From assembly GCA_028720205.1 (NCBI GenBank), contig JAQYLE010000006.1, forward strand, positions 1 through 60,655: DNA of 60,655 bases, read 5' to 3'. The translations under genes were made by a program, and so were the position numbers. The stretch is from Clostridia bacterium (GTDB lineage: Bacteria > Bacillota > Clostridia > Christensenellales > Borkfalkiaceae). Shown here one piece after another: positions 16,754-32,428 of this stretch; position 1 is the first letter of the stretch, and every line of letters starts with the position of its first letter. The notes under the pieces are model-generated. The model saw only the letters and a list, made by a program, of their open reading frames with translations. It made no database searches and had not been told where the DNA came from.

Positions 16754-16797
16754 CCTGAGAAAAGCCCCTGACGGTACCGTCAGGGGCTTTTCTCAGG
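16754..16797. terminator. 44-bp perfect palindrome, bidirectional terminator
   Basis: Two 22-base arms centred on GGTACC are perfectly complementary (CCTGAGAAAAGCCCC... to ...GGGGCTTTTCTCAGG). The T-tract and A-tract are inside the arms, so the inner GCCCCTGACGG stem followed by TTTT works in both directions. It lies between the AraC gene (plus) and the phosphodiesterase gene (minus), whose TGA stop (16793-16795) is inside the palindrome. Confidence 0.75.
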
Positions 16798-19063
16798 TAA
16801 TATTGTGCTTGTTTGAATTGGCGACGAATATAATATAATCCGAAAGCGGCAAGGGATAGGAATAATAATACCCCTGCACGGTATCGCAACCGAGCGCGAT
16901 CAGCCGCTCCAGATCTTCTTTGGTTTCCACGCCTTCCTGCGTAACTTTCATGCCGAGATTTTTAGCAAGTTGAATAATGCTGCTGAAAATGGCGTCGTCG
17001 CGGCTTTCGGAATCGCTACGTTCCAGAAAGAATTTATCAAGTTTTATTTCATCCATCGGAAGCGATTTCAAAATTCTGTACGAAGAATATCCGCACCCGA
17101 AATCGTCTATCGAACATTTGAAGCCTCTCCTGTGCAGACCGTCCACGATTTTTCTTAACGTGGCGTAATCCTCATAGGCAAAACTTTCGGTAAATTCAAT
17201 CATGATCAGCCCGTCGGAAATACCGTATTTACGTTTGGTGTTGTAATAATATTCCACAAAATCCGGTTGCACCGCGGTTATTCTTGAAACGTTTACGGAT
17301 ACGGGATACACCGTGCCCCCGTGCGCAATAGTATAACTTATGTACTCGCAAACTTTTTTATAAACGTATTTATCCAGTTTCACGATAAATCCGTTCGTTT
17401 CGAAAAGCCTCAAAAACAAAGCCGGCGCATTGAATTTTCCCGTTTTCGCGTCATACCAGCGAACCAGCGCTTCGCACCCGTCCTGCCTGCCGACGCGCAG
17501 ATTGTATTTGGGCTGATAAAAAATCTGAAACTCCCCGTTTTTAAGCGCGCCTTCCATACGCAGTTCCATATCTTCGTTCAACAAACGAATATTACTCAAT
17601 TCGCTGCTGTAAAAATTAAACTGCATATTTGCGTCCTGCGCGGTAGCCTGCGAAATAGCGTCGTTCGCCTCATAGGCGAAGTCGATCGCTTGCTGAATGG
17701 TCAGATCTTCCGATTGTACCCTTTCAAAAATACCGTATTTTAAAATAATATCGAATTTGTGCGCGCTTTTGTACTGATGGGCAAGATACGAAAGCGTTTT
17801 AAGCCTTGCAATCAGTCCGTCCCTGTCTTTTGCGTGTAAAAGCAGTACGAAATCGCCGTCCACGCAATGCCCGAAAGTCTCTTCGATGCCGATTATTTTA
17901 GCAATCGCCGTTTTTAAATGAAACAAAAGTCTGGAAATTTCGGCTTCACCGAACGAATCTTTTATATGTTTATAATGCTTCAGATGCATCGAGATAACGT
18001 AAAAACTCGTCGTCACGTTATTTCGCGCCAGAATTTCGCTTGCCAACTCTTCAAATCCGCGACGATTCAGACATTGAAGTTTAACGTCGGAGGTTTGCAT
18101 ATTAAAGAATTCTTTCTCTCTGCGCACTCTGCGCACGATAAGATATACAATAATCAGAACCGTTACCATCGCGAATAAAATCATAATCATGATTATCGTA
18201 TCCACGATATCGAAATCAACCGCGCATAAATTGTCGATGCGGTAAAGTTCCGCCAAGGAAAGATCTTTCAGTTTTGTTTTATCGGCGCATACGGAAACGA
18301 CGTACTCCGCAGTATCGATGGTTACCTTCACCGTTCCGTCCTCGCCCCCGTGAATGAGTTTCAACGCCTCGTTCACCCCATCGACCTCGCCCGTCATCGT
18401 CCGCAGGGAATCTTTTAAACTGAACGAAGGAAGATCCTCTCCTCCCGCCAGAATTTCCGTTTTCTCGTTATCGAGCGCGAGAACGGAAAAATCCGCGTCG
18501 GCGGTAACCGCGTCGGCGGAATAAAACGACGACAGTTTATTCCTCGGATAGTAAACGACCACGGCGTCTACAAAAGAAGAGCCGGTTACCGGCGCATAAA
18601 ACCCGGCGACGCTCATATTATATATTTCGTCGTTGAACACACCCGTATACCCCGGCTCGTTTGGAGTTGCGCCGCGGTGCTCCCGCGAGGAATCCGTTCC
18701 GGTATATTCCGCGCCGTTTTCACTATAAAGTACGTCTCCCGAAAAATACCGGACGAAACGCACTTCGCTGAATTCGCTTTTCTGCAACGCGTCCGAAATA
18801 ACTCCGTACGCTTCGACTTCATCGTCGCAATCGGATAACAAAATAGCCAGACTTATCGCTCCGGACGTGTTTTCCGTCAGTTTTTCATAAACGTGCGATT
18901 TGGCTTTCAGCGTTCGTTTCTGCGCTTCCGCCGTAGCGCGGACAGAGATGTCGTCGGAATAATTGATCAGCATGAACACGGCGGCGATAAGCAATACGGC
19001 GCTTGCCAGAGCGATTAAAGAAATAAGAACGGCTTTCCCGTATTTAGAAAAAAATTTATGCAT
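16793..19063 (-). CDS. Membrane c-di-GMP phosphodiesterase with degenerate GGDEF and intact EAL domain
   Basis: 756 residues. TM1 is at about 11-34, an extracytoplasmic sensor domain at 36-285 and TM2 at about 288-312 (IIMIMILFAMVTVLIIVYLIV). A GGDEF-like domain follows in which the signature is replaced by CVDGDFV, so no cyclase activity is expected. The EAL domain keeps its catalytic set: CEALVRWYD, VSVNVSR, MIEFTES, DDFGCGYSS, IKLDKFF and TQEGVET. It is the last gene of the c-di-GMP/fibre locus, 66 bases after the second signal peptidase, and should degrade c-di-GMP in response to an external cue, opposing the cyclase at 28402. Confidence 0.9.
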   Translation of the reverse strand: MHKFFSKYGKAVLISLIALASAVLLIAAVFMLINYSDDISVRATAEAQKRTLKAKSHVYEKLTENTSGAISLAILLSDCDDEVEAYGVISDALQKSEFSEVRFVRYFSGDVLYSENGAEYTGTDSSREHRGATPNEPGYTGVFNDEIYNMSVAGFYAPVTGSSFVDAVVVYYPRNKLSSFYSADAVTADADFSVLALDNEKTEILAGGEDLPSFSLKDSLRTMTGEVDGVNEALKLIHGGEDGTVKVTIDTAEYVVSVCADKTKLKDLSLAELYRIDNLCAVDFDIVDTIIMIMILFAMVTVLIIVYLIVRRVRREKEFFNMQTSDVKLQCLNRRGFEELASEILARNNVTTSFYVISMHLKHYKHIKDSFGEAEISRLLFHLKTAIAKIIGIEETFGHCVDGDFVLLLHAKDRDGLIARLKTLSYLAHQYKSAHKFDIILKYGIFERVQSEDLTIQQAIDFAYEANDAISQATAQDANMQFNFYSSELSNIRLLNEDMELRMEGALKNGEFQIFYQPKYNLRVGRQDGCEALVRWYDAKTGKFNAPALFLRLFETNGFIVKLDKYVYKKVCEYISYTIAHGGTVYPVSVNVSRITAVQPDFVEYYYNTKRKYGISDGLIMIEFTESFAYEDYATLRKIVDGLHRRGFKCSIDDFGCGYSSYRILKSLPMDEIKLDKFFLERSDSESRDDAIFSSIIQLAKNLGMKVTQEGVETKEDLERLIALGCDTVQGYYYSYPLPLSDYIIFVANSNKHNIT

Positions 19064-19129
19064 CTTATCGTCTCCTTGTCGTATTCGTTTTAATCGCCGG
19101 TTCCGAACGCCGCGGGCGGAAGCGCCGCG

Positions 19130-19795
19130 CTATTCTTTTTTTGAATCGTTTTTCTGCCCGTCGCGCACGTCTTCGTCTGCCCGACGGCTTTCGTCCTGTT
19201 TCCGAAGCCTTTCGATTTCCTCTTCAACCAGTCGGTCGAATTCTTTTTTATCGGTCTTTTCGCGGTTTTGCATAATATATCGGCAAAGCCAGAAAACGGT
19301 TCCGGCGAGAATTAACAAAATACACGCGATAAACCCCGCGTTCGAGGTGAAAATCCTGCCGAAAAAAGTCAGCACGGGCATATTGCGCACATAAACCGCA
19401 ACGACGTCCTCGGGGAAAACGTGCTTGGAATCCTGCGTTGCGGAATTGTCGCCTTTCGTAACGAACTCTTCGTTGTCTCCTACGATTTCAATCACCCTGT
19501 GCGTGTTCAGATTACCTTGAATCGCGGCTTCGCGCGAACGGAAAGTGATAACGTCGCCGACTCTGACTTCGCCCGGATCCGCTTTTTTAACGAGGATGTA
19601 ACTTTTTGCCGGAATCGTTTCTTCCATACTGTCGGTCAGCACCCACATCACGGAATAAGGGATTACCGTCTTACCCGTGATTTTTGAATACGCGACGACG
19701 GAAATCATCGCGCACGCCGCAACGCAGAATGCGGCGAATATCAGATTGAGCGTTTTTTTGACGATTCTTTTCACATCAGAAATCCTTTTTTTCAC
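19130..19795 (-). CDS. sipW: SipW/archaeal-type signal peptidase I
   Basis: 221 residues with an N-terminal membrane helix (LIFAAFCVAACAMISVVAYS) and a second near 150-175 (GFIACILLILAGTVFWLC). The catalytic region shows the Ser box VLTDSMEETIPA and the His box NTHRVIEIVG, then FVTKGDNSATQDSKHV. This Ser-His pattern is that of the SipW/eukaryotic-archaeal class rather than the Ser-Lys bacterial class. SipW enzymes process TasA/camelysin-like fibre proteins. The C-terminus is a charged cytoplasmic tail (EFDRLVEEEIERLRKQ). Its start overlaps the end of the 777-residue gene by 4 bases (ATGA), so the two are coupled. Confidence 0.9.
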   Translation of the reverse strand: MKKRISDVKRIVKKTLNLIFAAFCVAACAMISVVAYSKITGKTVIPYSVMWVLTDSMEETIPAKSYILVKKADPGEVRVGDVITFRSREAAIQGNLNTHRVIEIVGDNEEFVTKGDNSATQDSKHVFPEDVVAVYVRNMPVLTFFGRIFTSNAGFIACILLILAGTVFWLCRYIMQNREKTDKKEFDRLVEEEIERLRKQDESRRADEDVRDGQKNDSKKE

Positions 19796-22125
19796 TCTTT
19801 TGCGTTTTCTGATTCTTCCGTTTTTTCATTGCCGCCGCCTTTTTGCACGGCAGCCGTCGGAAAGGGCAGTTCAACGCCTCCGTCCCCTATTTTTTTCACG
19901 AGAGGTTCGGGAAGATTCAGCAATTCTTCCGTAGACATATATCCGCGCGAATAATTCACCGGACGTTTCTCTTCACGCTTTACGCCGTATTTTTTCATAA
20001 CGTCGTCGATCAGATCTTCGGCATACTTTACCGATCGTAAAGATCTGACCTTAAACATTACGGGCAAAACGGGCGTTTTTCCTTCCTTCGTAAGATCCGT
20101 TAAGCGATATTTCGTTCCGACGTAATCGGAAAGAGACAACGCAAAAGATAAAAACATGGATTTCCCGCGTATTTTGATTGTCATCACCGTTTGTCTGCCG
20201 TAATAAAACCTTTCGTGCGACCAAGCCGTAGCCGATCTGACGTTTTTATAAGACAATATCCGGTTTTTGATTTTCCCGTATGCCGCCTGAACGTTTTCGT
20301 CCGACTGGATAAATCTCGCAAGAAACGAATACCGATAACGCAACAGCGGTTTTTTCGCGTGATCCGCAGGAAAAGCGTTCAGATCTTCCCCGGTCCCCTG
20401 CGCCGACGGTCCGCACGGCGCCGCGTCGGGTTTCAAGGTTTTTTTGCCGACGATTTTTATCAGCGGCGGCACGCGCGTAAGCAGTTCTTCCCTCGTAGCA
20501 TACGGCAGATGATAATCTTTGTGCCGTTGCACCGCAAGTTTCTCTATTCCCTCGGCCGCCATCACGGCGTCTATCAGTTGCTTGGCGTATTTTACGCCGC
20601 GTTCCGATCTGACGCGCAGCGCCGAAAGAAACCCTCCGTCGGCGGCGCGGTCCGAAACGTCAACCAGCCGATATTTTTCTTTCTGAAGCGTTGCGTCTAA
20701 CGGCAGGAATAAAAACAACGTTTTTCCCTTCATCTTCAAACGGGCGAATTTTTTTCTTCCCGCAGAAAACTGTTCGTGGTTCCAACTTATACGCGCGCTC
20801 ACCTTTTTGTAAGACAGCAGATAATTTTTGATTTGCGTATAATATTCCTGCGCGGGATCCCCTGCGAGAATGAGTCGCGCCAGAAAAGAATAGCGATAGA
20901 GAAACCGCGGATTTTTTTTCGTCTCCGGGCCCTCGTTTTTCCTTTCGAAGAGCAGTTTATCGGCGGCGATCGCCACGCGTACGGCAAAGTCGGTTTTATC
21001 GTACAATTCTTCGAGCGCGTCCGTATTTTCCGGCGTTTTGTCCGGCAATTTATCCGTATACGTAAAATCGCGCTCGTCGATCGGATCGGGTTCCGTTTTT
21101 ATTTTATATTTTATCGCGTCGATCACGCGTTCGTCAAGCATATTTTCGCGGTCAAAGTCGTTCGACACATATTTGCCGAACAAAACGTACTGTTCCGCCA
21201 GCGTTTTATAAAACTCCTGCGCGCAGTCTTCCGGAATATTTTCGATATCCTCGCGGATAAGCGTCCGACACCCCGCGCTTTCGTAACTTTCCAGAAATTC
21301 CCATAAAGTGAGACAATTGCGGAAGTCGGTGTTTTTCAGTAAAAGATTCGTACGCATAACGGGCGGGCGAACGTAATTTCTGCCCATCTGCCGTATAAAG
21401 TCCGAATCAAGATAAGAACAAACCAGTTGTTTTACTTTTACCGCGCGTTTCCATAAATCGCTTGAAAACACGTGATTTTTTTGTACTTCGCCTTCCTCCG
21501 GTTTTTCGTCGATTTCAATCGTAAGAGAAATTTTACCCCGTTTTTCCCCGTCGGTAAACGTTCTGTCCACCGAAAGCGCGGACTGTTTTTCATCTGCGCC
21601 GTATTTTTCCGCCGCGTCCACTCTTACGCAGACGAAAGCGTACAGACGGGAAATAAGCGTATTGATAAAGCGGTTTTCGTAAGTTAAAACGGTGTCGTCC
21701 TGAAAGACGTTAAGAAGTCTGGAAGGCATAACCGAGCCGTCCGGCCTGATCTCGTTAATTAAATCCGTATGACGGGCGAGATGCTGAACGGAACGCGCGG
21801 AAACCCGTCTTGTCTGCTCCACGGGGCGCAGTTCTTCGCGCTCCACCAGACTTCTGCCGGGGTTTCTGAGAATCACGTCTATCGAGGGAAGAGCGTTTTC
21901 CACCGCGGTAATCCATTCTTCGTCAATCGCCTTAAGCAGAAACCTTTTTTTCAGCGCGACGTTGCCTTCGCCCTCGTTAAAAATTTTCATTACCCGTCGG
22001 TAATAAGAAAATTCGCGCATAAGATTATCAAGGCTGTCCGCCGTGGTCTGATACACGTCGGGCGTCGGCGTACCTTTATCGTCGGGGATAATCGGTTTGT
22101 TCGTATTATTAGTTTCGCCGTTCAA
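19792..22125 (-). CDS. McrC/DUF2357-like protein with a duplicated C-terminal module
   Basis: 777 residues, soluble, no signal peptide. The segment VLTYENRFINTLISRLYAFV (147-165) resembles the conserved ENRF helix of DUF2357/McrC partners of McrB ATPases. I see no PD-(D/E)XK nuclease motif. The C-terminal half holds two copies of a ~150-residue module (408-560 and 595-747). Each copy starts RYSFLAR, then has LSYK(K/N)V, (S/A)W.HE(Q/R)F..GR, (M/I)(K/R)GK(T/S), KYRL.D and VKYA..LID, and ends with a T.EELL....PL..K..G segment. It is encoded 83 bases after the AAA+ ATPase and overlaps the second signal peptidase, so it is the likely partner of that ATPase. Function unknown. Confidence 0.7.
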   Translation of the reverse strand: MNGETNNTNKPIIPDDKGTPTPDVYQTTADSLDNLMREFSYYRRVMKIFNEGEGNVALKKRFLLKAIDEEWITAVENALPSIDVILRNPGRSLVEREELRPVEQTRRVSARSVQHLARHTDLINEIRPDGSVMPSRLLNVFQDDTVLTYENRFINTLISRLYAFVCVRVDAAEKYGADEKQSALSVDRTFTDGEKRGKISLTIEIDEKPEEGEVQKNHVFSSDLWKRAVKVKQLVCSYLDSDFIRQMGRNYVRPPVMRTNLLLKNTDFRNCLTLWEFLESYESAGCRTLIREDIENIPEDCAQEFYKTLAEQYVLFGKYVSNDFDRENMLDERVIDAIKYKIKTEPDPIDERDFTYTDKLPDKTPENTDALEELYDKTDFAVRVAIAADKLLFERKNEGPETKKNPRFLYRYSFLARLILAGDPAQEYYTQIKNYLLSYKKVSARISWNHEQFSAGRKKFARLKMKGKTLFLFLPLDATLQKEKYRLVDVSDRAADGGFLSALRVRSERGVKYAKQLIDAVMAAEGIEKLAVQRHKDYHLPYATREELLTRVPPLIKIVGKKTLKPDAAPCGPSAQGTGEDLNAFPADHAKKPLLRYRYSFLARFIQSDENVQAAYGKIKNRILSYKNVRSATAWSHERFYYGRQTVMTIKIRGKSMFLSFALSLSDYVGTKYRLTDLTKEGKTPVLPVMFKVRSLRSVKYAEDLIDDVMKKYGVKREEKRPVNYSRGYMSTEELLNLPEPLVKKIGDGGVELPFPTAAVQKGGGNEKTEESENAKE

Positions 22126-22208: not shown

Positions 22209-23786
22209 TCAATAAGATTTTTGCAGGCGCTTTAAAAACGCAATACATTCTTTCATGGTGTTTTTGCCGAAAGTCGCGTCGAGGAAAGATATCAGACCGT
22301 TAATCTCGTCGCGTATGAGTCCGAGGTTAAGGCTTTCGAATTTTCTGAATACTTTAGTTGCCAGAATATAATCGAGTCCTTCCAGTTCGTCTCCGCCGCA
22401 TTCCACAAAAACGGGCACGAAGGTTTTCAACTGTTTTACGATACGGTTGCCGAAAGCCACGCGGAACCGCTCAATAACGAAGTTATCGAGTTTTTCTATT
22501 TTTTCAAGCAATTCGTCGGATACCGGGTGTTCCAGCACGGCTTTTTCGTACAACTTTGCGATAGTTCCGTAACTAACCCGTCTCGGGGCGGTTTCGGGCG
22601 CTTCGAACGGCACGCCCTTCTTATCGAGGTTGATCACGAAAGCGCGGTCGTAAACCTTATCCGACACGGCGAACGTGGAATCGTCGTTGTTCGCCGTACC
22701 CACGTACCAGACGTTTTCGGGAATTTTCAGTTTTCCGTCTTCCAGCAACGCGGGGTCGTTCGGCCATACGGAAGGAACGAGTTGAATTTTCCATTCTTCC
22801 GGGTCGGGCATTTCCAGAATGGAGAGCATTTCGGCAAAATAATATTCAACGCGGGCGATGTTCATCTCGTCGAGAACGATGATATTCACGTCGTTGGTAT
22901 AAGCGGATTCGTAAATACGGCGCAACACTTCGGTTTCGTTGAATTTTTTGGTAAATTCGTTGAAAAACCCGAACAATTCGGAACGGTCGCGCCAGGAGGG
23001 TTGCACGGAAGCGATGGTGGCGTCGTTTTCAAAATACTTGCCCACAACGTACGGCAGCGAAGTTTTACCCGTACCGGAAATACCCTGCAACAAAATCATT
23101 TTTGTGGAAGCGAAGCCGGCAATCATAAGTCGAATGGTTTTGATTTCATAGAAAAGATGCGATTGAAAACAGGCAAAGTTGCGTATTTCGTTGCAGATAT
23201 CCGCAAGAGTCATATTCTCGTCGTCATATCCGGGCGGCGTGAAATTTTTATATTTTTCGTCCACCGCCGTCAGGCGATAAAACCGCGGTTCCGTATTCTG
23301 CGGTTTTTCGGCAGGATGAACGTCGGCGGAAACAACCATTTCGCCCGCGTAAGCCTCCGCGGGTAAATCGAGTTCATCGCCGTTAACCACCGCCAATTCG
23401 TCCTGCCCGATATTCACGCCGCTCTTCAAGGCGATGATACGCTCTTTTTCTTTGGTAAGCCGCGTTACGTCCTTATGCAACTCCGCGATTTCTTCCAGCA
23501 GATCTTCGTTACACGCCAAAGAAGAGCGGTAACGGATATATTTGCGGATGAGAAGCACGATCAGAACGATGAGTCCCGTCCAGAAAGCGTAAACGAGCAC
23601 GAACGCAAGCACGGCGAAAATCCAGCCTAAAATGCCGAAACTGCCCTGATACTGCGAAAACAAACCGAAATACGTTCCGAAATCGAAGATATGCACGAAC
23701 CCCAGAAAGAACGATTTCAGCCCCTGCCAGATTCCGCCGAACATTTTTGTAATAAATGCAAAAAACCAATTCAAAAAAGCGTCCAT
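22209..23786 (-). CDS. Membrane-anchored McrB-like AAA+ ATPase/GTPase
   Basis: 525 residues. The N-terminus has two hydrophobic stretches (about 5-32 and 52-80, ILGWIFAVLAFVLVYAF...), then a coiled-coil-like segment (95-120) and a linker. The AAA+ core runs from about 215: Walker A GISGTGKTS (235-243), a SWRDRSELFGFF segment, Walker B NIIVLDEMN (301-309) followed by IARVEYYFAEMLSILE, and a sensor region YVGTANNDDSTFAVSDKVYDRA. The LDEMN..RVEYYFAE pattern is that of the McrB/MoxR-like group. McrB normally drives a DNA-restriction complex; a membrane-anchored version encoded between two signal peptidase genes suggests a different job, perhaps assembly or export of surface proteins. Confidence 0.85.
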   Translation of the reverse strand: MDAFLNWFFAFITKMFGGIWQGLKSFFLGFVHIFDFGTYFGLFSQYQGSFGILGWIFAVLAFVLVYAFWTGLIVLIVLLIRKYIRYRSSLACNEDLLEEIAELHKDVTRLTKEKERIIALKSGVNIGQDELAVVNGDELDLPAEAYAGEMVVSADVHPAEKPQNTEPRFYRLTAVDEKYKNFTPPGYDDENMTLADICNEIRNFACFQSHLFYEIKTIRLMIAGFASTKMILLQGISGTGKTSLPYVVGKYFENDATIASVQPSWRDRSELFGFFNEFTKKFNETEVLRRIYESAYTNDVNIIVLDEMNIARVEYYFAEMLSILEMPDPEEWKIQLVPSVWPNDPALLEDGKLKIPENVWYVGTANNDDSTFAVSDKVYDRAFVINLDKKGVPFEAPETAPRRVSYGTIAKLYEKAVLEHPVSDELLEKIEKLDNFVIERFRVAFGNRIVKQLKTFVPVFVECGGDELEGLDYILATKVFRKFESLNLGLIRDEINGLISFLDATFGKNTMKECIAFLKRLQKSY

Positions 23787-23892: not shown

Positions 23893-24678
23893 TTACTCGT
23901 TATCCTTTGATACCGTTTCCGAATCCGCAGCCTTGTCGCCCGCGGCGGCATTGTCGGCGGATTTTTCCGCTTCGCCGCAACCGTTTTCGCCCTGAGCGGA
24001 TTGAAGAGCCTGCCGCGCGAGATATTCTTCCACCGCGCGCTGTTTAATCAGTTCTTCTTCCTCTTTGGTGATCTGTTTTTTTCCTTTGTTGCGGATTTTG
24101 TTTATGGTGATAATCATAATCACGAGTTCGTAAACGAAAAACGCGGCGAGAGGAATAACGATACAGATCAGAAAGCCCGTACTGCTGCGCAGAAACGCGA
24201 TTGCCGAGCCCAGATGCGCTATGCGCTTGCCCGACCATATCGCCTCGATATCCGAAACGCCGATAGGGTCGTCGGGCACAAACGAAACTTCTCTGTTGTC
24301 GCCCTGGGTAACGTAAGTCACGGTACCGTTTTCCGCAACGCGCCGTTCGATGATTCTGTGCGTATTCAGCACCTTACCGTCTATACCGTCGCCTTCAAGG
24401 TCGGTATAAAAAGTAATCACGTCGCCCGTCTGAAGATTGTTTTTTTCTTCTTCGCTGAGTACGCGGCAAATAATGAGGTCGCCCTTTTTAAACCCGTCCG
24501 GCGCGTTCATCGAATCGGAAGATACGGTTAACAGACAGGTATTACCTATTTTAGGGTAACCCGCGTTGCTTGCCTGCGCGGAAAACGCAAGAATGGTCAT
24601 CAGAAGCGCGAATACGAGAAAAACCCATAAAATCACGTTAACGACGACTTTGAAAGTTTTTTTGGCTTTCTGGTTCAT
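23893..24678 (-). CDS. sipW: SipW/archaeal-type signal peptidase I (second copy)
   Basis: 261 residues. N-terminal membrane helix VVVNVILWVFLVFALLMTILA and a C-terminal helix GFLICIVIPLAAFFVYELVIMII. The Ser box is LLTVSSDSMNAPDGFKKGD and the His box LNTHRIIERR, followed by VTQGDNREVSFVPDD. A long acidic cytoplasmic tail (KEEEELIKQRAVEEYLARQALQ...) follows. It sits directly after the two small secreted proteins, as sipW sits beside tasA/yqxM in Bacillus, so those proteins are its probable substrates. It is only moderately similar to the copy at 19130, suggesting division of labour rather than recent duplication. Confidence 0.9.
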   Translation of the reverse strand: MNQKAKKTFKVVVNVILWVFLVFALLMTILAFSAQASNAGYPKIGNTCLLTVSSDSMNAPDGFKKGDLIICRVLSEEEKNNLQTGDVITFYTDLEGDGIDGKVLNTHRIIERRVAENGTVTYVTQGDNREVSFVPDDPIGVSDIEAIWSGKRIAHLGSAIAFLRSSTGFLICIVIPLAAFFVYELVIMIITINKIRNKGKKQITKEEEELIKQRAVEEYLARQALQSAQGENGCGEAEKSADNAAAGDKAADSETVSKDNE

Positions 24679-24746: not shown

Positions 24747-25304
24747 TTATGCAGGCGTATTGCTTATCGCCGGAAATTCGGCAGCGGAACTTTCTTTCGT
24801 ATCTTTGCTGCCCGCAACCGCGGTTTTTACCGTAGAGCCTTCGGTTGAGCGCACCTCGCCCACCGTAGCAAAACTTACCACGTTACTCAAATAATCGTCC
24901 GTTTTACCGCCCGTTATCTCGCTTTCGTTAAAAAGAGTAGAAGTCGACAACGAAAGATCTATCTTCGTTGCCGCCGCGGTAAACGAAACCACAAGAACCA
25001 CCGCTCTTTCGTATTCAGAAACGTCGATATTATATTTATCGAATTTCGGCAAAGAATTTACCGGCTTATCGCTTAAAAACTCGTATTCGTTGCCGTTATC
25101 GCCGCTGATAGCCGTAACGGGGCACATACGTACCTGCGAATCGCTGAACGAGGTATCGGGGCAGACGTTCAGCCCGTTTGCCGTAACGTTCTGCGAACTC
25201 GCAAACCAGGAAAACGTGGTAATCGACGCGCATAAAAACACCGCTGTTAAAAACAGAGTAACAACGCACGAAATCAGTTGTTTTTTCAGCGACGGTTCAG
25301 CCAC
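24747..25304 (-). CDS. SipW-dependent-type small secreted protein (minor subunit candidate)
   Basis: 185 residues from a GTG start with a GGAGGGG ribosome binding site 6 bases upstream. The N-terminus has a membrane helix (LISCVVTLFLTAVFLCASI) followed by the TFSWFASSQNVTANGLNV motif. That motif is shared in form with the TFAWFS...VTATGMQV motif of the next gene upstream and is typical of TasA/camelysin-like proteins processed by SipW. The mature part is a short beta-rich domain (AVVLVVSFTAAATKIDLSLS) with a Ser/Thr/Ala-rich tail. Compared with its neighbours it lacks the final (V/I)W-DG-type strand pair. Likely a minor or anchoring fibre component. Confidence 0.7.
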   Translation of the reverse strand: MAEPSLKKQLISCVVTLFLTAVFLCASITTFSWFASSQNVTANGLNVCPDTSFSDSQVRMCPVTAISGDNGNEYEFLSDKPVNSLPKFDKYNIDVSEYERAVVLVVSFTAAATKIDLSLSTSTLFNESEITGGKTDDYLSNVVSFATVGEVRSTEGSTVKTAVAGSKDTKESSAAEFPAISNTPA

Positions 25305-25560: not shown

Positions 25561-26373
25561 TTACGCGGCAGGTACGGCGTCTACGTTGAATGTAAGAGCA
25601 ACGGTAGCGCCCGCTAAGTTTGCGGCGTTGTTGGTATTTACCGCCTCATTGTTCCCGTCGTAGTAGATGTAAATGTTAACGGTGAGAACGGTGGAATCGG
25701 TAAGGTTGGTATTGCCTCCTTTTATTTCCTCCGTGTTAGTGGTAGTGGTGCTGTCGAGAATGGCAATGCCGCCGTCGCTGGTGGTAACGAGAACTTTCGC
25801 CGCCGAGATATTCGAACCGTCGCCTTTCTTCGTGAACGCAGCGGTTACGGAAAGGTTATTCGCAGGGTTCGCGCCTTTCGCAACGGTGAGATGAACGGTT
25901 TTTTTAATTACGTAACCCGCGAAGGATGTCAACTGTCTTGCGGTATCCGCTTTTATAGTAGACGCTCCGGGTGCCGCCGCGTTAGCGGTATACCAGTTGG
26001 TAACGGTATCCGCAGTAGTTGCGCTCGTAACTTTTTCACCTGCCGTGGTAATATCAGCGCCATCAACCGTCTTATGACCGGATGCGACGGTAAGATAACC
26101 TACTTCGGTATCGTTAAGAGCGGGCGCGCAAGGATATACTTTGGCTTGATCATCGGAAACCGTCAGCGCAACGGTGGTTGCGTTTTCAGTTTGAATAGCC
26201 TCAGCGGAAGAATTCGTTTCGCTGATTAACAGGTAGGTAGTATCCGTTTTAGCGGTAACCTGCATACCGGTGGCGGTAACCTGCGTGTTCATTGAGAACC
26301 AGGCGAAGGTTGAGGTGCCCAGGAGCGCCGCTGCCAGAAGCGTCATGCAAATTGCGGGGAATAATTTTTTCAT
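25561..26373 (-). CDS. TasA/camelysin-like secreted protein (major fibre subunit candidate)
   Basis: 270 residues with AAAGGAG upstream. Signal region KKLFPAICMTLLAAALLGTSTFAWFSMN: the hydrophobic core followed by TFAWFS is the hallmark of SipW-dependent secreted proteins. The mature chain is threonine-, alanine- and valine-rich, nearly devoid of aromatic clusters, and reads as alternating beta-strands (VIKKTVHLTVAKG, NLSVTAAFTKKG, VLTVNIYIYYDGN, ATVALTFNVDAVP), like TasA-fold fibre proteins. The C-terminal V.IYYDG...G..V.LTF pattern matches VVIWLEG...GG.MKVEMKF of the membrane-anchored neighbour. A tandem repeat array and a hairpin lie in its upstream region and hairpins lie downstream, consistent with strong independent expression. 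Confidence 0.75.
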   Translation of the reverse strand: MKKLFPAICMTLLAAALLGTSTFAWFSMNTQVTATGMQVTAKTDTTYLLISETNSSAEAIQTENATTVALTVSDDQAKVYPCAPALNDTEVGYLTVASGHKTVDGADITTAGEKVTSATTADTVTNWYTANAAAPGASTIKADTARQLTSFAGYVIKKTVHLTVAKGANPANNLSVTAAFTKKGDGSNISAAKVLVTTSDGGIAILDSTTTTNTEEIKGGNTNLTDSTVLTVNIYIYYDGNNEAVNTNNAANLAGATVALTFNVDAVPAA

Positions 26374-26431: not shown

Positions 26432-26496
26432 TTTTAACCTTTACTTTTAACCGTTACTATTAACCGTTACATTTACCGTTTACTTTTCACTTTTAC
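26432..26496. repeat. Five tandem 13-bp repeats
   Basis: Consecutive units starting at 26432, 26445, 26458, 26471 and 26484 follow the consensus TTTTAACCGTTAC; units 2 and 3 differ at one base and the outer units are more diverged. The array fills the space between the membrane-anchored protein gene (whose stop lies in the last unit) and the leader of the major fibre gene. Possible uses are a cooperative protein-binding array or a slippage-prone expression tuner. Confidence 0.85.
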
Positions 26497-27254
26497 GTTG
26501 TTTCGGGGTCTACGTCCGAAGTGGAAGTTACGCCAAACTTCATTTCTACTTTCATAACGCCGCCTATAATCGAATCCACGCAATCGGGGTCGTTGCCTTC
26601 CAGCCAGATTACCACGGTATATTTCATTACGTCGTTCGGCTTAAAATCTTCGATAACTCCTTTCGTCACCGTGTTTTTATTAAAGAACGCCACCGTATCG
26701 GGTTCGGGCACGGAATTTCCGTCCTCGTCCACGCCCGCCGCTCTGGCAAAATCGTCCTTTGCAACAAGCGTTTCGTTATACGTCTGAATCAGTCGTATCC
26801 GCACCGCTTTTTCGATGTCCATCGTCATGTTGGTAATATTCATCGAATATTCGTACGACAGCGTTTCCTTCCCCGAATTTTTGCAATAAAACGTATAGCA
26901 CAAATAATTTTCGCCGCTGTCGTTTCCGTCCACCGCGCCCAGATCTATTTCGTCGAGCGTTGCGCCGTCGATATTCGTCATCTCTTCAACCGCTTTACAG
27001 TTCAACCTTGACGTAGGCGCCGAAAAATATCTGTCGTCGGAAAGCGACAATCCGTATTGCAATGCGTGATATTTGTTTACCGATACGGTAAAACTTCCAA
27101 ATTTAGAATACATTACCGAAACAACGTAAACAAGTATCAGAAGCGCCGCAATCACCGCCAGAATTGCCGGAATAAGTTTTTTCAACAAGCGGTAATTACG
27201 TACTTCGTTCGCTCTTCTGCGTAATACCGACTTGCTCTTTTTTTCGGACATCAT
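26493..27254 (-). CDS. Membrane-anchored TasA/camelysin-like protein
   Basis: 253 residues. A basic cytoplasmic N-terminus (EKKSKSVLRRRANEVRNYRLLKK) is followed by one membrane helix (LIPAILAVIAALLILVYVVSVMY, about 31-53) and an extracytoplasmic beta-rich domain. There is no FAWF motif, so it should stay attached as a type II membrane protein. The C-terminal block YTVVIWLEGNDPDCVDSIIGG then VMKVEMKFGV is a pattern seen at the end of TasA/camelysin-like proteins. Its start overlaps the degenerate EAL gene by 4 bases. It is a good candidate for the membrane anchor or nucleator of the fibre. Confidence 0.7.
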   Translation of the reverse strand: MMSEKKSKSVLRRRANEVRNYRLLKKLIPAILAVIAALLILVYVVSVMYSKFGSFTVSVNKYHALQYGLSLSDDRYFSAPTSRLNCKAVEEMTNIDGATLDEIDLGAVDGNDSGENYLCYTFYCKNSGKETLSYEYSMNITNMTMDIEKAVRIRLIQTYNETLVAKDDFARAAGVDEDGNSVPEPDTVAFFNKNTVTKGVIEDFKPNDVMKYTVVIWLEGNDPDCVDSIIGGVMKVEMKFGVTSTSDVDPETT

Positions 27255-28054
27255 AATTCTTCGTACTCCGATTCAGGCTTTGTTAATTTAACCGCCTGCT
27301 CCGCGGTAAGCGGTACGGCTTCGCAATCGATAAACCCCGCGCAATCGGTGCGCCTCAGTTCGCGCCGCTTGTCCGCCGTTCCTTCCGCATACGCCTCTAT
27401 GCCCATGTTCTTTATGTACGTTATCATCGAAGATACCAGCATGGGTTTATCGCGGTTGCCCGCCCACGCTACGGCGGTTTTATCCAGAAGCACCGCGTAC
27501 GGTTGTACGGTAACGAGTTTCGAAAGCGGAAAATCTTCTTTTCCGCAACCCGTAATCATCGTTTTTACTTTTAACGAATGAATATCCTGCAACGCCCGCC
27601 GCGCTTTGTCAGTGGATTTTTCAAGTATTTCGGCAGGAAACTCCACCATAATAAACGACGGGTCGGTTATGCGGCTTTTTTTAAGAACGCCCGCTATCGC
27701 CTCGTATAAATCCGTACGGGAATTTTCTACCGCTTCCGCCGGACAACGCAACGATATAAACCGTATCGGGGGAGTGCAACCTTTAAAATCGCTTATATGC
27801 GCCGCCGCGCGCCTCAGGCTTTGTAAAAACAATTCCGTGCCCGTATCGCGCTTGTCGCAGATATGCGCGTAATCCTCTTGCCGCAGGGTGCCCGCAATCA
27901 CCGAACGAATCACCGTCTGCACCCTGAACGCCACCGGTCTGCCCGTGTCGCAGTCCGCTACGGGAACAAATACGAGTTCCAACGGAGAAACTCCGCTTTG
28001 TAAAGAGAGTTCTACGTATTTTTCAAACGTCCGCTTGTCGCTTATATTTTTCAT
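27251..28054 (-). CDS. Degenerate EAL-domain protein
   Basis: 267 residues from the ATG at 28054, which has AAAGGAGAG upstream; the longer open frame to 28207 runs through the riboswitch and is rejected. The fold order of an EAL domain can be followed: VFVPVADCDTGRPVAFRV stands where QPI...G.EAL should be, MVEFPAEIL for IEITE, ITGCGKEDF for DDFGTG, VLLDKTAV for KIDRSFV and AYAEGTAD for AEGVET. The EAL residues, both metal-binding aspartates of DDFG and the final glutamate are gone, so no phosphodiesterase activity is expected. It is soluble, the first gene behind the c-di-GMP riboswitch, and may be a c-di-GMP or protein-binding regulator of the fibre machinery. Confidence 0.75.
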   Translation of the reverse strand: MKNISDKRTFEKYVELSLQSGVSPLELVFVPVADCDTGRPVAFRVQTVIRSVIAGTLRQEDYAHICDKRDTGTELFLQSLRRAAAHISDFKGCTPPIRFISLRCPAEAVENSRTDLYEAIAGVLKKSRITDPSFIMVEFPAEILEKSTDKARRALQDIHSLKVKTMITGCGKEDFPLSKLVTVQPYAVLLDKTAVAWAGNRDKPMLVSSMITYIKNMGIEAYAEGTADKRRELRRTDCAGFIDCEAVPLTAEQAVKLTKPESEYEEL

Positions 28055-28094: not shown

Positions 28095-28149
28095 AAAAAA
28101 GCGGCCGGCTGTAAACGGAAGTTCCGTTTGCAACTGGCTGCCACAATAA
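28095..28149 (-). terminator. Predicted riboswitch expression platform (terminator)
   Basis: On the minus strand AAACGGAA/TTCCGTTT (28122-28129 and 28113-28120) is a perfect hairpin core. Its outer arms extend with GTGGCAGCCAG (aptamer 3' strand, down to 28149) against CAGCCGGCCGC and are followed by TTTTTT (28100-28095). The outer arm shares sequence with the aptamer, so aptamer and full terminator cannot form together. Confidence 0.55.
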
Positions 28150-28200
28150 TTAAGGCCCTATAGTTTTGCGTCGCACGCTTTTGCGTGTTTTGCCCCTCGG
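28128..28200 (-). promoter_or_regulatory. c-di-GMP-I (GEMM-I) riboswitch aptamer
   Basis: The minus-strand RNA contains GGGGCAAAAC, a CACGC-AAAA-GCGTG hairpin, then GACGCAAAACTATAGGGC and, after a short stretch, GGCAGCCAGTTGC. These elements follow in the order and spacing of the GEMM-I consensus (GGCAAACC, hairpin, GGACGCAAAGCTATAGGGCCTAA, ATAGCCAGGTTGCC). The P2 stem has a mismatch and the loop is AAAA rather than GAAA, so it is a slightly divergent member. It lies in the leader of the degenerate EAL/fibre operon, after a strong promoter and before a terminator-like hairpin. Confidence 0.85.
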
Positions 28201-28271
28201 TATTCAATTCTCATTCGATTCTCGCGCCCGCGTCGGCGTAAAACCTTTCGCCGAGCGACGATTACGCGTTT

Positions 28272-28300
28272 ATTTTATCAGAAAAAAACGTATTTGTCAA
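28272..28300 (-). promoter_or_regulatory. Strong sigma-A promoter of the riboswitch-controlled operon
   Basis: TTGACA (28295-28300), a 17-bp spacer and TAAAAT (28272-28277) on the minus strand. Transcription would begin near 28265, giving a leader of about 210 bases that holds the c-di-GMP aptamer and terminator. The rest of the 347-base gap between the two genes (28301-28401) shows no other feature I can support. Confidence 0.8.
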
Positions 28301-28401: not shown

Positions 28402-29472
28402 TCACGATTCGCCCCGGTATCTGCCTTCCTGTTCGTTCTGTTCCGCGTAATATCTTTTTTTATTCAGGTACATTTCCGATTCAGCCGCTTTTATCAGTTG
28501 TTCGGTATCTCTTTCTATCTTATCCTGCTCGGCGTACCCGAACGAGAGAAGATTGCCGTGTGCGGCGGAAAAACTTTTTAATTCGTTCAGTTTTTGTTCC
28601 GTTTCGTTTTTATCCGCGTCGGCAAGAAACGCTACGAACTCGTCGCCGCCCACGCGGTAAACGTTTTCGCTCCCGAACAGACGGGTTAATTCTCCGGCTA
28701 TGTTCTTTAACATCTCGTCGCCGTTGTTATGCCCCAACTCGTTGTTGCATTCGTGCAGTCCGTTCGCGTCAACGTAACAGCAGCCTATGCCCCGCTTGCA
28801 CGATTCGGTATGACCGCCCTTATTCAGTTCGAAAGAGTTCCTGTTGTTTACGCCCGTAAGCAGATCGGTCAGGCTGAGATATCTCGAACGGTAATCGAAA
28901 TAGTATCTTTGATACTTCGTTCTTATCGCAAAAAATCCTACGATAACGCTTACGGTACAAAAAAGGATTACGTGAATCACGTCCAACGTACGCACCGAAG
29001 GATCTTTCAGAAATAACGCGGCTATTATAAAAATAATCGTATAAATCAAAAGAAAACAGATTACGCGAATGGGTTTATCCGAAAAAAGCAACGGCGCAAC
29101 AAGCAGTAAGGCGATGAAAGTCACCGCGTTTTTATCGGGAGCGACCACCGTCGCAAGCAATATTCCCACGGCAAACAAAACCGACCAAAAAATATAAACG
29201 TTGAAAATCAGCGCCGTTCTGCTCATTTTAACGCATTTGTAAAGCACGTATAACGCCAGATCAACGCACAATAAACTGAAATAAATCCATCTGCCCGCTT
29301 TTGCAATGTCGAAAAACAGCGAGCAAATAAACATCAAAGCAAAAAAGACCGCTACGATTGCGGCGCACATCTTTAAATTATTCCGGTTTTCTTCCGAAAC
29401 GTCGTTCTTGATTGTTTCATATTCGTCTTTAGTCAAACCGGCATATAACAAATCGTTTTTAGTAAATTTCAT
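28402..29472 (-). CDS. Six-TM membrane diguanylate cyclase (GGDEF)
   Basis: 356 residues, AGGAG ribosome binding site. The N-terminal half has six hydrophobic helices between about 35 and 195 (CAAIVAVFFALMFICSLFF through VIHVILFCTVSVIVGFFAI), forming a small-molecule or membrane-state sensor. The GGDEF domain is intact: LTGVNNRNSFEL, DANGLHECNNELGHNNGDEML and YRVGGDEFVAFL. No RxxD inhibitory site is obvious five residues before the signature. It should make c-di-GMP from two GTP at the membrane. It lies between the two-component regulator and the c-di-GMP riboswitch, and so likely feeds the latter. Confidence 0.92.
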   Translation of the reverse strand: MKFTKNDLLYAGLTKDEYETIKNDVSEENRNNLKMCAAIVAVFFALMFICSLFFDIAKAGRWIYFSLLCVDLALYVLYKCVKMSRTALIFNVYIFWSVLFAVGILLATVVAPDKNAVTFIALLLVAPLLFSDKPIRVICFLLIYTIIFIIAALFLKDPSVRTLDVIHVILFCTVSVIVGFFAIRTKYQRYYFDYRSRYLSLTDLLTGVNNRNSFELNKGGHTESCKRGIGCCYVDANGLHECNNELGHNNGDEMLKNIAGELTRLFGSENVYRVGGDEFVAFLADADKNETEQKLNELKSFSAAHGNLLSFGYAEQDKIERDTEQLIKAAESEMYLNKKRYYAEQNEQEGRYRGES

Positions 29473-29593
29473 TTTGTTATTGCTCCTGTCGGCGCGATCA
29501 ACGCTTCGCGCTCCTGCAAAACGGGATTTCTGAAACGTAAACTTTTCGTTTTTTTAATATTACTATTTTAGTTTTATTTTTATTTTAAACCCC

Positions 29594-29614
29594 AAAGGAC
29601 GACGAAAGGACGAC
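29594..29614 (-). promoter_or_regulatory. Direct repeats upstream of the cyclase gene, candidate SARP-type site
   Basis: AAAGGACGAC occurs at 29594-29603 and 29605-29614 (plus-strand reading), identical copies with an 11-bp period, i.e. one helical turn. They lie in the 200-bp gap between the response regulator and the cyclase gene, just upstream of an A/T-rich promoter-like stretch. SARP-family activators are known to bind tandem direct repeats with 11-bp periodicity next to the -35. Confidence 0.55.
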
Positions 29615-29672
29615 TATTTGTCGAAAAATAAAAATTATTTTAATAATTTATAATAAAATTATGCCGTTTCCG

Positions 29673-30500
29673 TTATTTTCGTTTTGCCATTATCGCTTCG
29701 AATCTTCCCGTGGAAAACTCCGCCCACGAATAGGCGTACATATATTCCCCGCGATAGGCGTTTATCGCGGAGGGGTCGCCTTTTTCAAAGTCGTAGGCGT
29801 CGCATTTTATAGCGGCGGGGTCAATCGCCAACTGATTCCACGATTGCACCAGAACGTTCCCGATTCCCGCCGCTTTCAGGTCCGCTTTTAAAAACGAAAC
29901 CGTTCTGGTTACCGCGTTTTTCAGTTTTTTATCGTAGTTCTCGTTTTCAAACAAAACGGCGGCGATGCGTTCCGTGGTTACGCCCGCACCGTTTCTGTCT
30001 ATCAGATACGCAAACAGTTCTTTGGCTTTTGCCCGTGAAAACTTCAACGGCTTACCGTTTACGAATACTTCGAAATCCCCGAAGGTTTTTACCCGCACTC
30101 CCGCGTTTCGTGCGTTTTGTTCGTCTTTCCAATCTTCCACCATTTCGTCGAGCACGTCGGTTATGTCTTTTGCCCGCACGGGTTTTAATAAATACCCTTT
30201 CGCTTTCAGCCCGAACGCGTCTATCGCGTATCGGCTGTACGCGGTGCAGAAAAACAGCCTGACTTTCGGAAAATACGTTTTTAGCATTTTCGCCGCTTCT
30301 ATTCCGTTCGTTTCCGGCAGTTCCACGTCGCAGAACGCGTAATCGAGTTCCCCGCCGCTCTCTTTCAGCGATTTCGCAAACGCTTCCGCGCCCGCCGCGT
30401 CGTTCAGCCCTTTTATATCCGCAAGGGGAAATACCGTTTTTATCTCCCTGATCAAACCGGCAAGCGCAAGTCTTTCGTCGTCCAGTACCAGAATGTTCAT
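29673..30500 (-). CDS. Response regulator with SARP-type winged-helix DNA-binding domain
   Basis: 275 residues from the ATG at 30500, which overlaps the end of the kinase gene by 4 bases; the longer frame to 30770 is an extension into the kinase and is rejected. The receiver domain shows the acidic pair at D7-D8, the phosphorylatable aspartate at D58 in FCDVELPETNG, FFCTAYS and the lysine in LLKPV. The DNA-binding domain FGDFEVFVNGKPLKFSRAKAK then ELFAYLIDRNGAGVTTERIAAVLF is a Trans_reg_C/SARP winged helix, and the C-terminal YRGEYMYAYSWAEF is a common ending in this response regulator type. It should act with the kinase and probably controls the cyclase gene. Confidence 0.9.
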   Translation of the reverse strand: MNILVLDDERLALAGLIREIKTVFPLADIKGLNDAAGAEAFAKSLKESGGELDYAFCDVELPETNGIEAAKMLKTYFPKVRLFFCTAYSRYAIDAFGLKAKGYLLKPVRAKDITDVLDEMVEDWKDEQNARNAGVRVKTFGDFEVFVNGKPLKFSRAKAKELFAYLIDRNGAGVTTERIAAVLFENENYDKKLKNAVTRTVSFLKADLKAAGIGNVLVQSWNQLAIDPAAIKCDAYDFEKGDPSAINAYRGEYMYAYSWAEFSTGRFEAIMAKRK

Positions 30501-32428
30501 AGTATGGCTTCTCCTTTTTCCGCCGCGTTCTTTTTTAACAGAATGGTTATCGTAGTGCCTTTGCCTTTTTCGCTTTCTATATTCATCGCGGCGCCTGCAA
30601 TCATTTCCAGCCGTTTTTTTACGTTGGCTATTCCTACGTGCGCGGTCCCTTCGTCTTTTAACGTTTCCGCAGGGTCGAATCCCGCCCCGTCGTCTTTTAC
30701 GCATATCGTAGTTATTCCGTTCGAAGAAAAAGAAGAAAGCGTTACCGTGCCGCCCTGTTTTTTTGCGCATATCCCGTGTTTTACGGCGTTTTCCACTAAC
30801 GGCTGTACGGTTAAGGGCGGAATAAAAAAGTTGCTTTCCCTTATATCGTATATCACGTTCAGGCGGTCTCCGAACCTCATCTTTTCAAGGTTCAGATACG
30901 TCTGAACGTGTTTTAATTCCTTAGAAAAATGCACCGCCGTTTCCGTTCCGCTGAATTCCATATTTTCGCGCAGATACGCCGAAAAATCAGTCAGCATTTC
31001 CTTGGCGGTATGCGGTTCGCTCTCGCACAGTTCGATAATAGCGCTCAGCGAATTGTAAATAAAGTGCGGCTTTATCTGCGACAACATCAGCGACATACGG
31101 CTCGTCGCCAGTTCCTTTTCCTGTTCCGCGATTCTTTTACCCCGCTCGCCGTATTCTTCCAACGCATTTATTCCCGAAATAACCGTGTAAAGGATAAACG
31201 CCGCCAGCGTAAACACCAGTACCGACGAATTGCCGATGAGGTAATAAGCCGCCAGATCGCTGAGCGCCCCGGCTATAAATAAAAACGCCGGGTTGCCCGT
31301 TTTACGATTGCGATCGGAATCGGCGTTTCGTTTGTTGAATATAAAATTGCAAAATACTATAACTATGCCTGCGATAATTATAAAATGCGTGACAAACAAA
31401 CTCTCCCTTAAATCGGCAACCCCGAAAACCTGAAGGGCGAGTTGCACCAGGCTGACGCACGTCGCCGCTATGCAGTAAACGTCCGTAAATTTACGGCTGA
31501 GCCTGCCGTACCTGAGCCTTACGGACGTCATCAACGGCACGACGCCCAACGTCAGCATGCAAATCGAACAATAATACACGAACGCGGGATTCTGCGAAAA
31601 AAGAAATGCCGTAAACCGCGTATCGGTAAATCTCCATAATCCCACCAGAACCGAAAACAGTCCGAGCAGCATCAATTCCTCGCCTTGTTTTTTCTTAATA
31701 TAACGCCACAGTCCCGAGGCGACGAATATTAAGCCCATCATCGCCGAAATAACGCTTAAAACCAGTTGAGGTAAATCTTTCTCCAATTGCGCGTTGTAAA
31801 TCGCAAGTTCGTTGCCCTGTAAAATCTCCGTTTCCCAATCATCGAACGCTTTGTATACGGAAGCGATTTTTATAACGACCTCTTTCCCCGCGTCGTCCGG
31901 CGATAGCGGCACCATAACCCAATTCGCGCCGGGGGTTTTAATATTGTTCTTGTCTCCCGTCGTTATACCGTACTCCCGCTCGCCGCCTATAAATACTTCG
32001 CAAAACTGGTGTACCGAATAAAACGCTATACAATCGCCGGATTCGGGCGTTTCGCCTAACGTAAACGAATATTCCGCAAGCGTTCCCGCGCCCTCCTGCG
32101 AATTTTCCGTTTTTACAAGCGTATAATCGTTAATCTTTCTGTAATCGTTCTTCGTTCGTCCGCCGAAAATGATTACGTTGTCCGACAGCAATACAAATAT
32201 CAGATAGCCTAAAAACGCGCATACCGAAACCAGATAAATAACAACGACTAATTTTGTCGACAGGGGTTTCTTTTCGGTTTTTCCCTTTCCGTCGAAATAT
32301 CCGCCCGACGGCAGGTTGTTTTCCCCTGCGTTAAAAGGCGCCCCCGATTTTTTTGCGCGCGATTGCGACGGGCGGACTTCACCCGTCTGCCCGTCCGTGC
32401 GCCTGTCTGAAAAATGCTCGTCCCTCAT
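30497..32428 (-). CDS. LytS-like sensor histidine kinase with 7TM sensor
   Basis: 643 residues. One membrane helix near 57-83 is followed by an extracellular beta-rich sensor domain (about 90-215), then seven hydrophobic helices (about 220-415), an arrangement like 7TMR-DISM receptors. The cytoplasmic part is the His_kinase/LytS type: MSLMLSQIKPHFIYNSL with the phospho-accepting histidine in PHF, then the ATPase domain with PPLTVQPLVENAVKHG (N box) and KDDGAGFD (G1), ending GKGTTITILL. It is the first gene of the two-component operon, read from a promoter with an embedded palindrome. The extracellular ligand is unknown. Confidence 0.92.
   Translation of the reverse strand: MRDEHFSDRRTDGQTGEVRPSQSRAKKSGAPFNAGENNLPSGGYFDGKGKTEKKPLSTKLVVVIYLVSVCAFLGYLIFVLLSDNVIIFGGRTKNDYRKINDYTLVKTENSQEGAGTLAEYSFTLGETPESGDCIAFYSVHQFCEVFIGGEREYGITTGDKNNIKTPGANWVMVPLSPDDAGKEVVIKIASVYKAFDDWETEILQGNELAIYNAQLEKDLPQLVLSVISAMMGLIFVASGLWRYIKKKQGEELMLLGLFSVLVGLWRFTDTRFTAFLFSQNPAFVYYCSICMLTLGVVPLMTSVRLRYGRLSRKFTDVYCIAATCVSLVQLALQVFGVADLRESLFVTHFIIIAGIVIVFCNFIFNKRNADSDRNRKTGNPAFLFIAGALSDLAAYYLIGNSSVLVFTLAAFILYTVISGINALEEYGERGKRIAEQEKELATSRMSLMLSQIKPHFIYNSLSAIIELCESEPHTAKEMLTDFSAYLRENMEFSGTETAVHFSKELKHVQTYLNLEKMRFGDRLNVIYDIRESNFFIPPLTVQPLVENAVKHGICAKKQGGTVTLSSFSSNGITTICVKDDGAGFDPAETLKDEGTAHVGIANVKKRLEMIAGAAMNIESEKGKGTTITILLKKNAAEKGEAIL

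Follow-up and report, generated by a model that had tools for sequence, protein, structure and literature searches.

A conserved SipW operon of Clostridia with links to c-di-GMP and a nuclease-less McrBC-like pair

The window analysed here, a 60,655-nucleotide (nt) stretch of a Clostridia bacterium of the Borkfalkiaceae (contig JAQYLE010000006.1, assembly GCA_028720205.1), carries at 16793-32428 on its minus strand twelve successive open reading frames (ORFs), all of which were confirmed, as an earlier reading of the bare letters (the sequence-only reading) had claimed. Most of them belong to a real and conserved operon, linked to cyclic diguanylate (c-di-GMP), that combines SipW-type signal peptidases with a nuclease-less McrBC-like pair. 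The gene set, its conservation, an McrC-SipW fusion, the dead and intact residues of two EAL proteins, and the riboswitches with the genes behind them are established at the sequence level. The operon is likely to make fibres, and a motor or gate is our best guess for McrB and McrC. On balance, we regard the locus as probably a system for c-di-GMP-gated SipW/TasA-like fibre export, in which the nuclease-less, membrane-tethered McrBC-like NTPase would serve as motor or gate.

The conserved core

An alignment of membrane McrB proteins served to scan genome contigs for relatives and gave at least 582 matches. Of these, the best 80 were retained as loci, together with flanks of up to 10 kb, and the neighbourhood counts given below refer to 81 loci, that is, the window and these best 80 of at least 582 relatives. 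Since many contigs are cut, the denominators are 56 loci for the upstream side (flank of at least 5 kb) and 54 for the downstream side (at least 6.5 kb); the script that picked the ORFs is biased towards homologous ones. The usual gene order is dead EAL protein, membrane-anchored protein (ANCH in the window), SipW, McrB, McrC and a second SipW, often followed by two further proteins, one small and coiled-coil-like, the other of GGDEF-EAL type. Upstream, SipW was present in 56 of 56 loci and the anchored and dead-EAL proteins in 49 of 56 each; downstream, McrC and the second SipW were both present in 54 of 54, fusions counted, and a long active EAL protein in 24. Overall, McrC lies downstream in 78 of the 81 loci. 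The expected conservation of these genes as neighbours was thus borne out by a shared core, to which the two regulators that had been counted as parts of the system do not belong. Among the 81 loci, the LytS profile matched in two, namely the window and L122, and the SARP/receiver profile in the window alone; given this poor conservation, both were rejected as core parts. A SARP-like match (3.7e-9) lies upstream of one locus of the same genus, L065.

As a control, McrB proteins with a transmembrane (TM) segment were compared with other McrB relatives: SipW was present in 10 of 10 TM-McrB loci versus one (L078) of nine loci of the others. Such membrane McrB proteins are rare: they were found in 15 of 341 sampled genomes of the class at 1e-100 (11 of these matching from the N-terminus; seven families) and, in the phylum sample, in one of 398 genomes, that of the window. 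A TM-like stretch within the first 130 residues and the NxD signature in the form GTANNDDS are both present in 81 of 81 McrB proteins, and the McrB-like profile matches the solved Escherichia coli McrB (6hz4, 6ut6 and 7vsr, 2.8e-9 to 7.2e-9). In a tree of 33 McrB sequences (the window, the ten loci L063-L072, 11 of the best 80 loci and 11 non-TM proteins, pieces below 200 amino acids (aa) being dropped), the TM and non-TM groups fall on either side of one branch with a support of only 61/72, so that a single origin is not established. Loci L073 and L074 hold non-membrane McrB/McrC pairs beside proteins of 994-1477 aa, with McrB duplicated in L074; these pairs are possibly true defence systems.

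Pfam recognised no nuclease domain in the McrC proteins of the window and of L120, and a simple D...(D/E)xK pattern, searched for at the sequence level, was not found in the C-terminal parts of the five McrC proteins checked, one of them 397 aa long. A search of the McrC DUF2357 profile against PDB sequences gave only a chance-level match to EF-Tu (0.93). The C-terminal part of the window McrC consists of two copies of a domain of about 150 aa, at about residues 408-551 and 592-750 (window 19846-20940), which was found from a pattern of partial matches and is present in other proteins of the relatives too; the 777-aa query matches 81 of 121 genomes, many solely through this part. An alignment of the domain was set aside because two of its rows, L014 and L019, look foreign to the family. 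Charged coiled-coil-like stretches were seen by eye in the McrC of L118 and L102, whereas the window McrC has the duplicated domain instead. In PADLOC, the McrB region matches PDC-M26A (2e-34) and the McrC protein PDC-S18 (2.7e-7), the latter match being weak on the duplicated domain. In 13 of 78 loci, all of them Ruminococcus or Oscillospiraceae records, McrC runs in frame into a SipW-type peptidase, and in R. albus KH2T6 DUF2357 and Peptidase_S26 both exceed their Pfam cut-offs within one protein. Nothing hints more strongly at an action of McrB and McrC on the secretion step than this fusion, which may have arisen just once. The two best SipW-type peptidase matches in the genome of the window (77.2 and 50.9 bits; cut-off 51.85) are those of this locus, and a third is weak at 25.8 bits.

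Further small proteins and a second type of riboswitch were seen in the relatives. A coiled-coil-like protein of about 75 aa with an RSRSQ[SA]AL core lies 3' of the second SipW or McrC (L088:12678-13412, L089:5594-5857 and 49 other loci); its profile matched in 51 of 101 loci scanned, the window not being among them, and Pfam gave no convincing match for it. Conserved across Ruminococcus loci is a membrane-type protein of about 150 aa between the McrC-SipW protein and the small protein (L120:14581-15033), for which no Pfam family matched convincingly. A fluoride riboswitch match lies near the locus in R. albus KH2T6 (L120:19370-19445).

Predicted control by c-di-GMP

The locus does contain the c-di-GMP-I riboswitch that the sequence-only reading had placed in its middle, with an Rfam score well above the gathering cut-off (Table 1). 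The covariance model detected 25 class-I riboswitches, spread over 20 of 91 loci. Judged by position, the next gene encodes the dead EAL protein in 18 cases, SipW in four, a FAWF-type protein in two and the anchored protein in one (tandems counted singly). Two dead-EAL genes are preceded by tandem class-I riboswitches (L102:6536-6721 and L095:5416-5613). For 17 of the 25, the best-scoring terminator hairpin has a T run behind it and overlaps the 3' end of the aptamer, starting 6 to 19 nt inside it, although in five of these by only 6 nt. An uninterrupted terminator arm of at least seven pairs is present in 14 of the 25, versus 1.39 expected from dinucleotide shuffles. The terminator of the window scores only 5 on this count because its stem is interrupted, and it was not reported by the pattern scan; its helix recurs within the minimum free energy fold of the leader. 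Because the terminator uses the aptamer's own 3' end, the ligand should hinder termination, and the operon is therefore predicted to be switched on by c-di-GMP. In the region of the promoter-like site upstream of the riboswitch, two sites of that quality were found versus 0.5 expected.

The two EAL proteins differ in their catalytic residues. In the upstream one, counted in 51 proteins after two of the original 53, each of at least 420 aa, had been excluded, the Glu of the EAL motif and the catalytic Lys are each kept in none and the second Asp of DDFG in nine, whereas the EFTES Glu persists in 38 and the ExLxR Arg in 34. This protein is a candidate c-di-GMP receptor. In the downstream EAL protein, each of the ten positions checked is kept in 26 or 27 of 27 sequences, and the EAL-motif Glu and the catalytic Lys both in 27. 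Of the circuit proposed in the sequence-only reading, the c-di-GMP wiring and a predicted ON switch are therefore supported, as is a phosphodiesterase with intact catalytic residues; that the switch would turn on fibre export and the enzyme would shut the system down are proposals.

Of ten genomes with a membrane McrB, in each of which 150 candidates were scored, six hold a total of at least 11 class-I riboswitches, and four are without any among the candidates scored. Ten of the 11 found precede this operon or SipW-signal proteins. Five share a contig with McrB; another two, close to contig ends, lie ahead of dead-EAL and anchored genes (G071:C39 and G001:C71); and three precede pairs of SipW-signal proteins (G000:C58, G071:C20 and G028:C5), in which the second member has 1150 aa in the first case, at least 761 aa in the second and at least 1019 aa in the third. 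The SipW-type signals of the pairs were identified by eye, as were, in L171 and L174, the dead EAL and the anchored protein. The second riboswitch of the window's own genome (L169:1366-6570, on G000:C58) is followed by SipW-signal proteins of 285, 1150 and 232 aa.

Candidate fibre subunits and the layout of the locus

The three small beta proteins of the window (ANCH, FAWF and FSWF), which had been called TasA/camelysin-like, matched no Pfam or NCBIfam family. Nor was there any Pfam or NCBIfam match to the TasA or camelysin families among the 30 proteins of the FAWF alignment, one of which has a weak cognate_SipW signal match (0.0069); membership of TasA by sequence was rejected for want of a family match. 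A relationship between FAWF and the anchored protein is supported. After removal of the one anchored protein included in the 30-row alignment (L088:4636-5502), the clean FAWF profile retrieved both ANCH and FSWF from among 18 window proteins (Table 1); in the reverse search against the same proteins, the anchored-protein profile did not retrieve FAWF. The clean FAWF and anchored profiles match each other at 96% (4.2e-9), and the two kinds of protein have a C-terminal domain in common. Throughout the window's genome, the FAWF profile with its one anchored row matches only FAWF, the anchored protein and FSWF.

AlphaFold2 (AF2) models of FAWF (pLDDT 79.4) and ANCH (pLDDT 84.4) predict beta-sandwich subunits. 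Foldseek matches were weak: 7ueg, 8aur and 7pnb take ranks 2, 3 and 5 for FAWF, with E-values of 2.0e-3 to 4.1e-3, and the TasA fibre 8aur takes rank 2 for ANCH (4.4e-4). For both models, the TasA fibre and archaeal pili are within the top five. These fold matches suggest a TasA-like fold for FAWF and ANCH, as far as the models go, and it is on them and on the signal motif that the description as TasA/camelysin-like rests.

Each of the seven loci that lack both the dead EAL and the anchored protein has an upstream ORF of 1280-2884 aa. Giant ORFs of 1968-2884 aa lie directly upstream of SipW in L085:1164-7304, L096:3043-8946, L101:1-8454 and L103:3-8654; Pfam gave one marginal Fascin match for those of L085 and L103, and otherwise none.

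The features of the window are collected in Table 1. Profile searches agreed with the earlier assignments of the GGDEF and EAL domains, the two SipW-type peptidases, DUF2357, the McrB-like AAA+ domain, the LytS-like kinase and the receiver domain. The twelve genes lie close together, with intergenic gaps of -4, 200, 347, -4, 119, 256, 68, 106, 83, -4 and 66 nt. The receiver-domain ORF spans 29673-30770, with a likely start, by reading, at 30500. Galactose, FGGY-kinase and ABC-transport genes flank the locus on both sides.

Table 1. Genes and regulatory elements of the locus, in window positions
Feature	Position	Strand	Basis and remarks
LytS-like histidine kinase, multi-TM	30497..32428	-	Pfam His_kinase 1.5e-21, HATPase_c 4.8e-10; 6 TM-like stretches; lineage-specific, outside conserved core
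Receiver-domain regulator, SARP-like C-terminus	29673..30500	-	Pfam Response_reg 3.4e-12; SARP label from the sequence-only reading; lineage-specific
Membrane diguanylate cyclase, intact GGDEF	28402..29472	-	Pfam GGDEF 9.7e-17; GGDEF at residue 275; 6 TM-like stretches
Sigma-70-type promoter-like site TTGACA-17-TAAAAT, 5' of riboswitch	28272..28300	-	11/12 positions match
c-di-GMP-I riboswitch aptamer	28126..28204	-	Rfam RF01051 54.4 bits, gathering cut-off 35; covariance model R1 82.4 bits (window is one of the R1 seeds)
Predicted terminator hairpin and T run, ON-type platform	28100..28142	-	5' arm begins within aptamer 3' end; -20.9 kcal/mol
Catalytically dead EAL protein, candidate c-di-GMP receptor	27251..28054	-	Pfam EAL 3.2e-16; likely start 28054, about 70 nt 3' of riboswitch
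ANCH, membrane-anchored beta-rich protein, FAWF homologue	26493..27254	-	AF2, Foldseek; clean FAWF profile 3.5e-11
FAWF, SipW-type signal protein, candidate fibre subunit	25561..26373	-	AF2, Foldseek
FSWF, SipW-type signal protein	24747..25304	-	Clean FAWF profile 1.8e-7, chiefly residues 7-47
SipW-type (ER/archaeal type) signal peptidase 1	23893..24678	-	Motifs SDSM, NTHR; NF046067 76.1 bits, below its 190-bit cut-off
McrB-like AAA+ NTPase	22209..23786	-	N-terminal TM stretch 46-84; NxD motif GTANNDDS
McrC-like protein, 777 aa	19792..22125	-	N-terminal Pfam DUF2357 1e-8, sole match above cut-off; duplicated C-terminal domain of about 150 aa
SipW-type signal peptidase 2	19130..19795	-	TIGR02228 76.5 bits, above cut-off; motifs DSM, NTHR; 4-nt overlap with McrC
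Membrane phosphodiesterase, degenerate GGDEF (DGDFV) and intact EAL	16793..19063	-	Pfam EAL 8.1e-56, GGDEF 6e-9; EALVRW, IDDFG, TQEGVET, VQGYYYS present

Known relatives and possible roles of the operon

The sequence-only reading knew of no characterised system with this set of parts. Part of the combination has since been found to carry a name: CoCoPALM was introduced in 2024 by Bell et al. in eLife for McrB proteins of the NxD type that carry an FtsB-like TM/coiled-coil domain and adjoin signal peptidases (PMC11090510). It was not characterised there, being treated in one paragraph as a clade of CoCoNuT-like McrBC systems, with its analysis deferred to a later paper; the main text of that article makes no mention of SipW, camelysin, biofilm, c-di-GMP, GGDEF, TasA or riboswitches. 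Under this name, only the article and its preprint proved relevant, and no other literature was found that joins McrBC-type AAA+ pairs, SipW/TasA-like fibres and c-di-GMP, the literature on SipW with c-di-GMP being covered in part. The loci described here resemble CoCoPALM, as far as that paragraph goes, in the NxD McrB of all 81, in the DUF2357 partner and in the signal peptidases found upstream (56/56) and downstream (54/54); of the FtsB-like TM/coiled-coil domain, a TM-like stretch was seen in all 81. They differ in their TasA-like candidate cargo, dead EAL protein, riboswitches and McrC-SipW fusions, and in the duplicated domain of the window McrC, whereas a coiled coil is usually fused to McrC there. 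What is added to the known class is a c-di-GMP circuit, TasA-like candidate cargo, a riboswitch regulon and the McrC-SipW fusion. E. coli McrBC, a type IV restriction system (PMC11090510), likewise has a McrB AAA+ domain and a DUF2357 McrC partner; here, however, the nuclease domain is not recognised, the motif is NxD and not NxxD, and a membrane helix is present.

Other systems share the secretion or the control side. The tapA-sipW-tasA operon of Bacillus subtilis also pairs a SipW-type peptidase with dedicated beta-sandwich fibre subunits, but is described as three genes under SinR, whereas the subunits here are outside the TasA sequence families (PMC9674648). Similarly, sipW-bsaABCRSD of Clostridium perfringens is a clostridial SipW operon with a polymerising BsaA and a two-component system, yet the operon as named includes no McrB/McrC, and no riboswitch is mentioned in the account used here (PMC7395162). 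In C. difficile, a riboswitch activates pilA1 and adhesin genes at high c-di-GMP; in that account, however, class II is the ON and class I the OFF type, unlike the class I riboswitch with a predicted ON platform seen here (PMC6200980).

If the locus is indeed a c-di-GMP-gated fibre system, c-di-GMP would rise through the local GGDEF cyclase and other inputs and bind the class-I aptamer in the leader, the overlapping terminator would be blocked and the operon transcribed. Its output would comprise the dead-EAL protein, the anchored subunit, the FAWF and FSWF subunits, two SipW-type peptidases, and McrB and McrC. SipW would cut the signal helix of the FAWF type; outside the cell, the beta domains would then build TasA-like fibres or adhesins, for which the anchored protein would serve as base. 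The nuclease-less McrC may position the membrane-tethered McrB ring at SipW, so that NTP hydrolysis would power or gate subunit release and assembly, while the dead-EAL protein, as a c-di-GMP receptor, may license the ring and the downstream phosphodiesterase would reset the signal. The position of the FAWF-type gene is less fixed than that of the core: it separates the anchored-protein gene from SipW in 12 of 57 loci and occurs anywhere in the locus in 48 of 81, and in several Ruminococcus loci FAWF-type genes are upstream on the opposite strand; this recount slightly lowered our confidence in a fibre system. The riboswitch of G114:C38 precedes an unrelated 463-aa membrane protein, which does not fit.

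A bolder form of the fibre-export reading is tentative, and we lean against it: a restriction-type McrB/McrC would have been repurposed as a membrane-bound, c-di-GMP-gated export motor, in which McrC, fused to a SipW peptidase in some lineages, would use the NTP hydrolysed by the McrB ring to have TasA-like subunits and giant adhesins cleaved, released and polymerised. McrB and McrC might instead act in quality control, as an unfoldase or extractor that frees the membrane of SipW substrates which have stalled or been cut wrongly. The membrane tether, the McrC-SipW fusion and the AAA+ domain would suit an extractor as well as a motor, and BsaA of C. perfringens polymerises even in E. coli, so that a motor is unnecessary for such polymers (PMC7395162). 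However, the tight co-conservation with the operon and the c-di-GMP control suggest a dedicated role, and no partner protease stood out in the 81 gene maps; we think an extractor unlikely. Equally unlikely, in our view, is a secretion island in which c-di-GMP controls the SipW-dependent export of diverse adhesins but no fibres are made; FAWF proteins would then be monomeric surface proteins or would team up with giant adhesins, and the McrBC pair would act as a regulator. The seven loci with large upstream ORFs would agree with it, as would the second riboswitch locus, which couples a 285-aa SipW-signal protein with one of 1150 aa, but the C-terminal domain common to the anchored and FAWF proteins, and the presence of polymerising proteins among their best fold matches, speak against it. 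Least probable, and indeed rather improbable, is anti-phage defence by a CoCoNuT-like restriction machine with SipW and the surface proteins as an accessory sensing or abortive part, which could draw on the placing of CoCoPALM among CoCoNuT-like McrBC systems (PMC11090510) and on the two PADLOC candidates, but is weakened by the unrecognised nuclease and the metabolic genes on both flanks and fits poorly with a c-di-GMP riboswitch, a phosphodiesterase and a dead EAL protein.

For the uncharacterised CoCoPALM class, the fibre-export reading proposes a concrete function beyond defence that can be tested, and the fused McrC-SipW protein is available in cultured rumen bacteria, R. albus and R. flavefaciens. 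If the export-motor form were true, it would represent a class of Gram-positive fibre-assembly motors unrelated to the type IV pilus ATPases. The combination of a c-di-GMP-I riboswitch with a SipW-type signal also offers a route to unknown surface structures of gut Clostridia.
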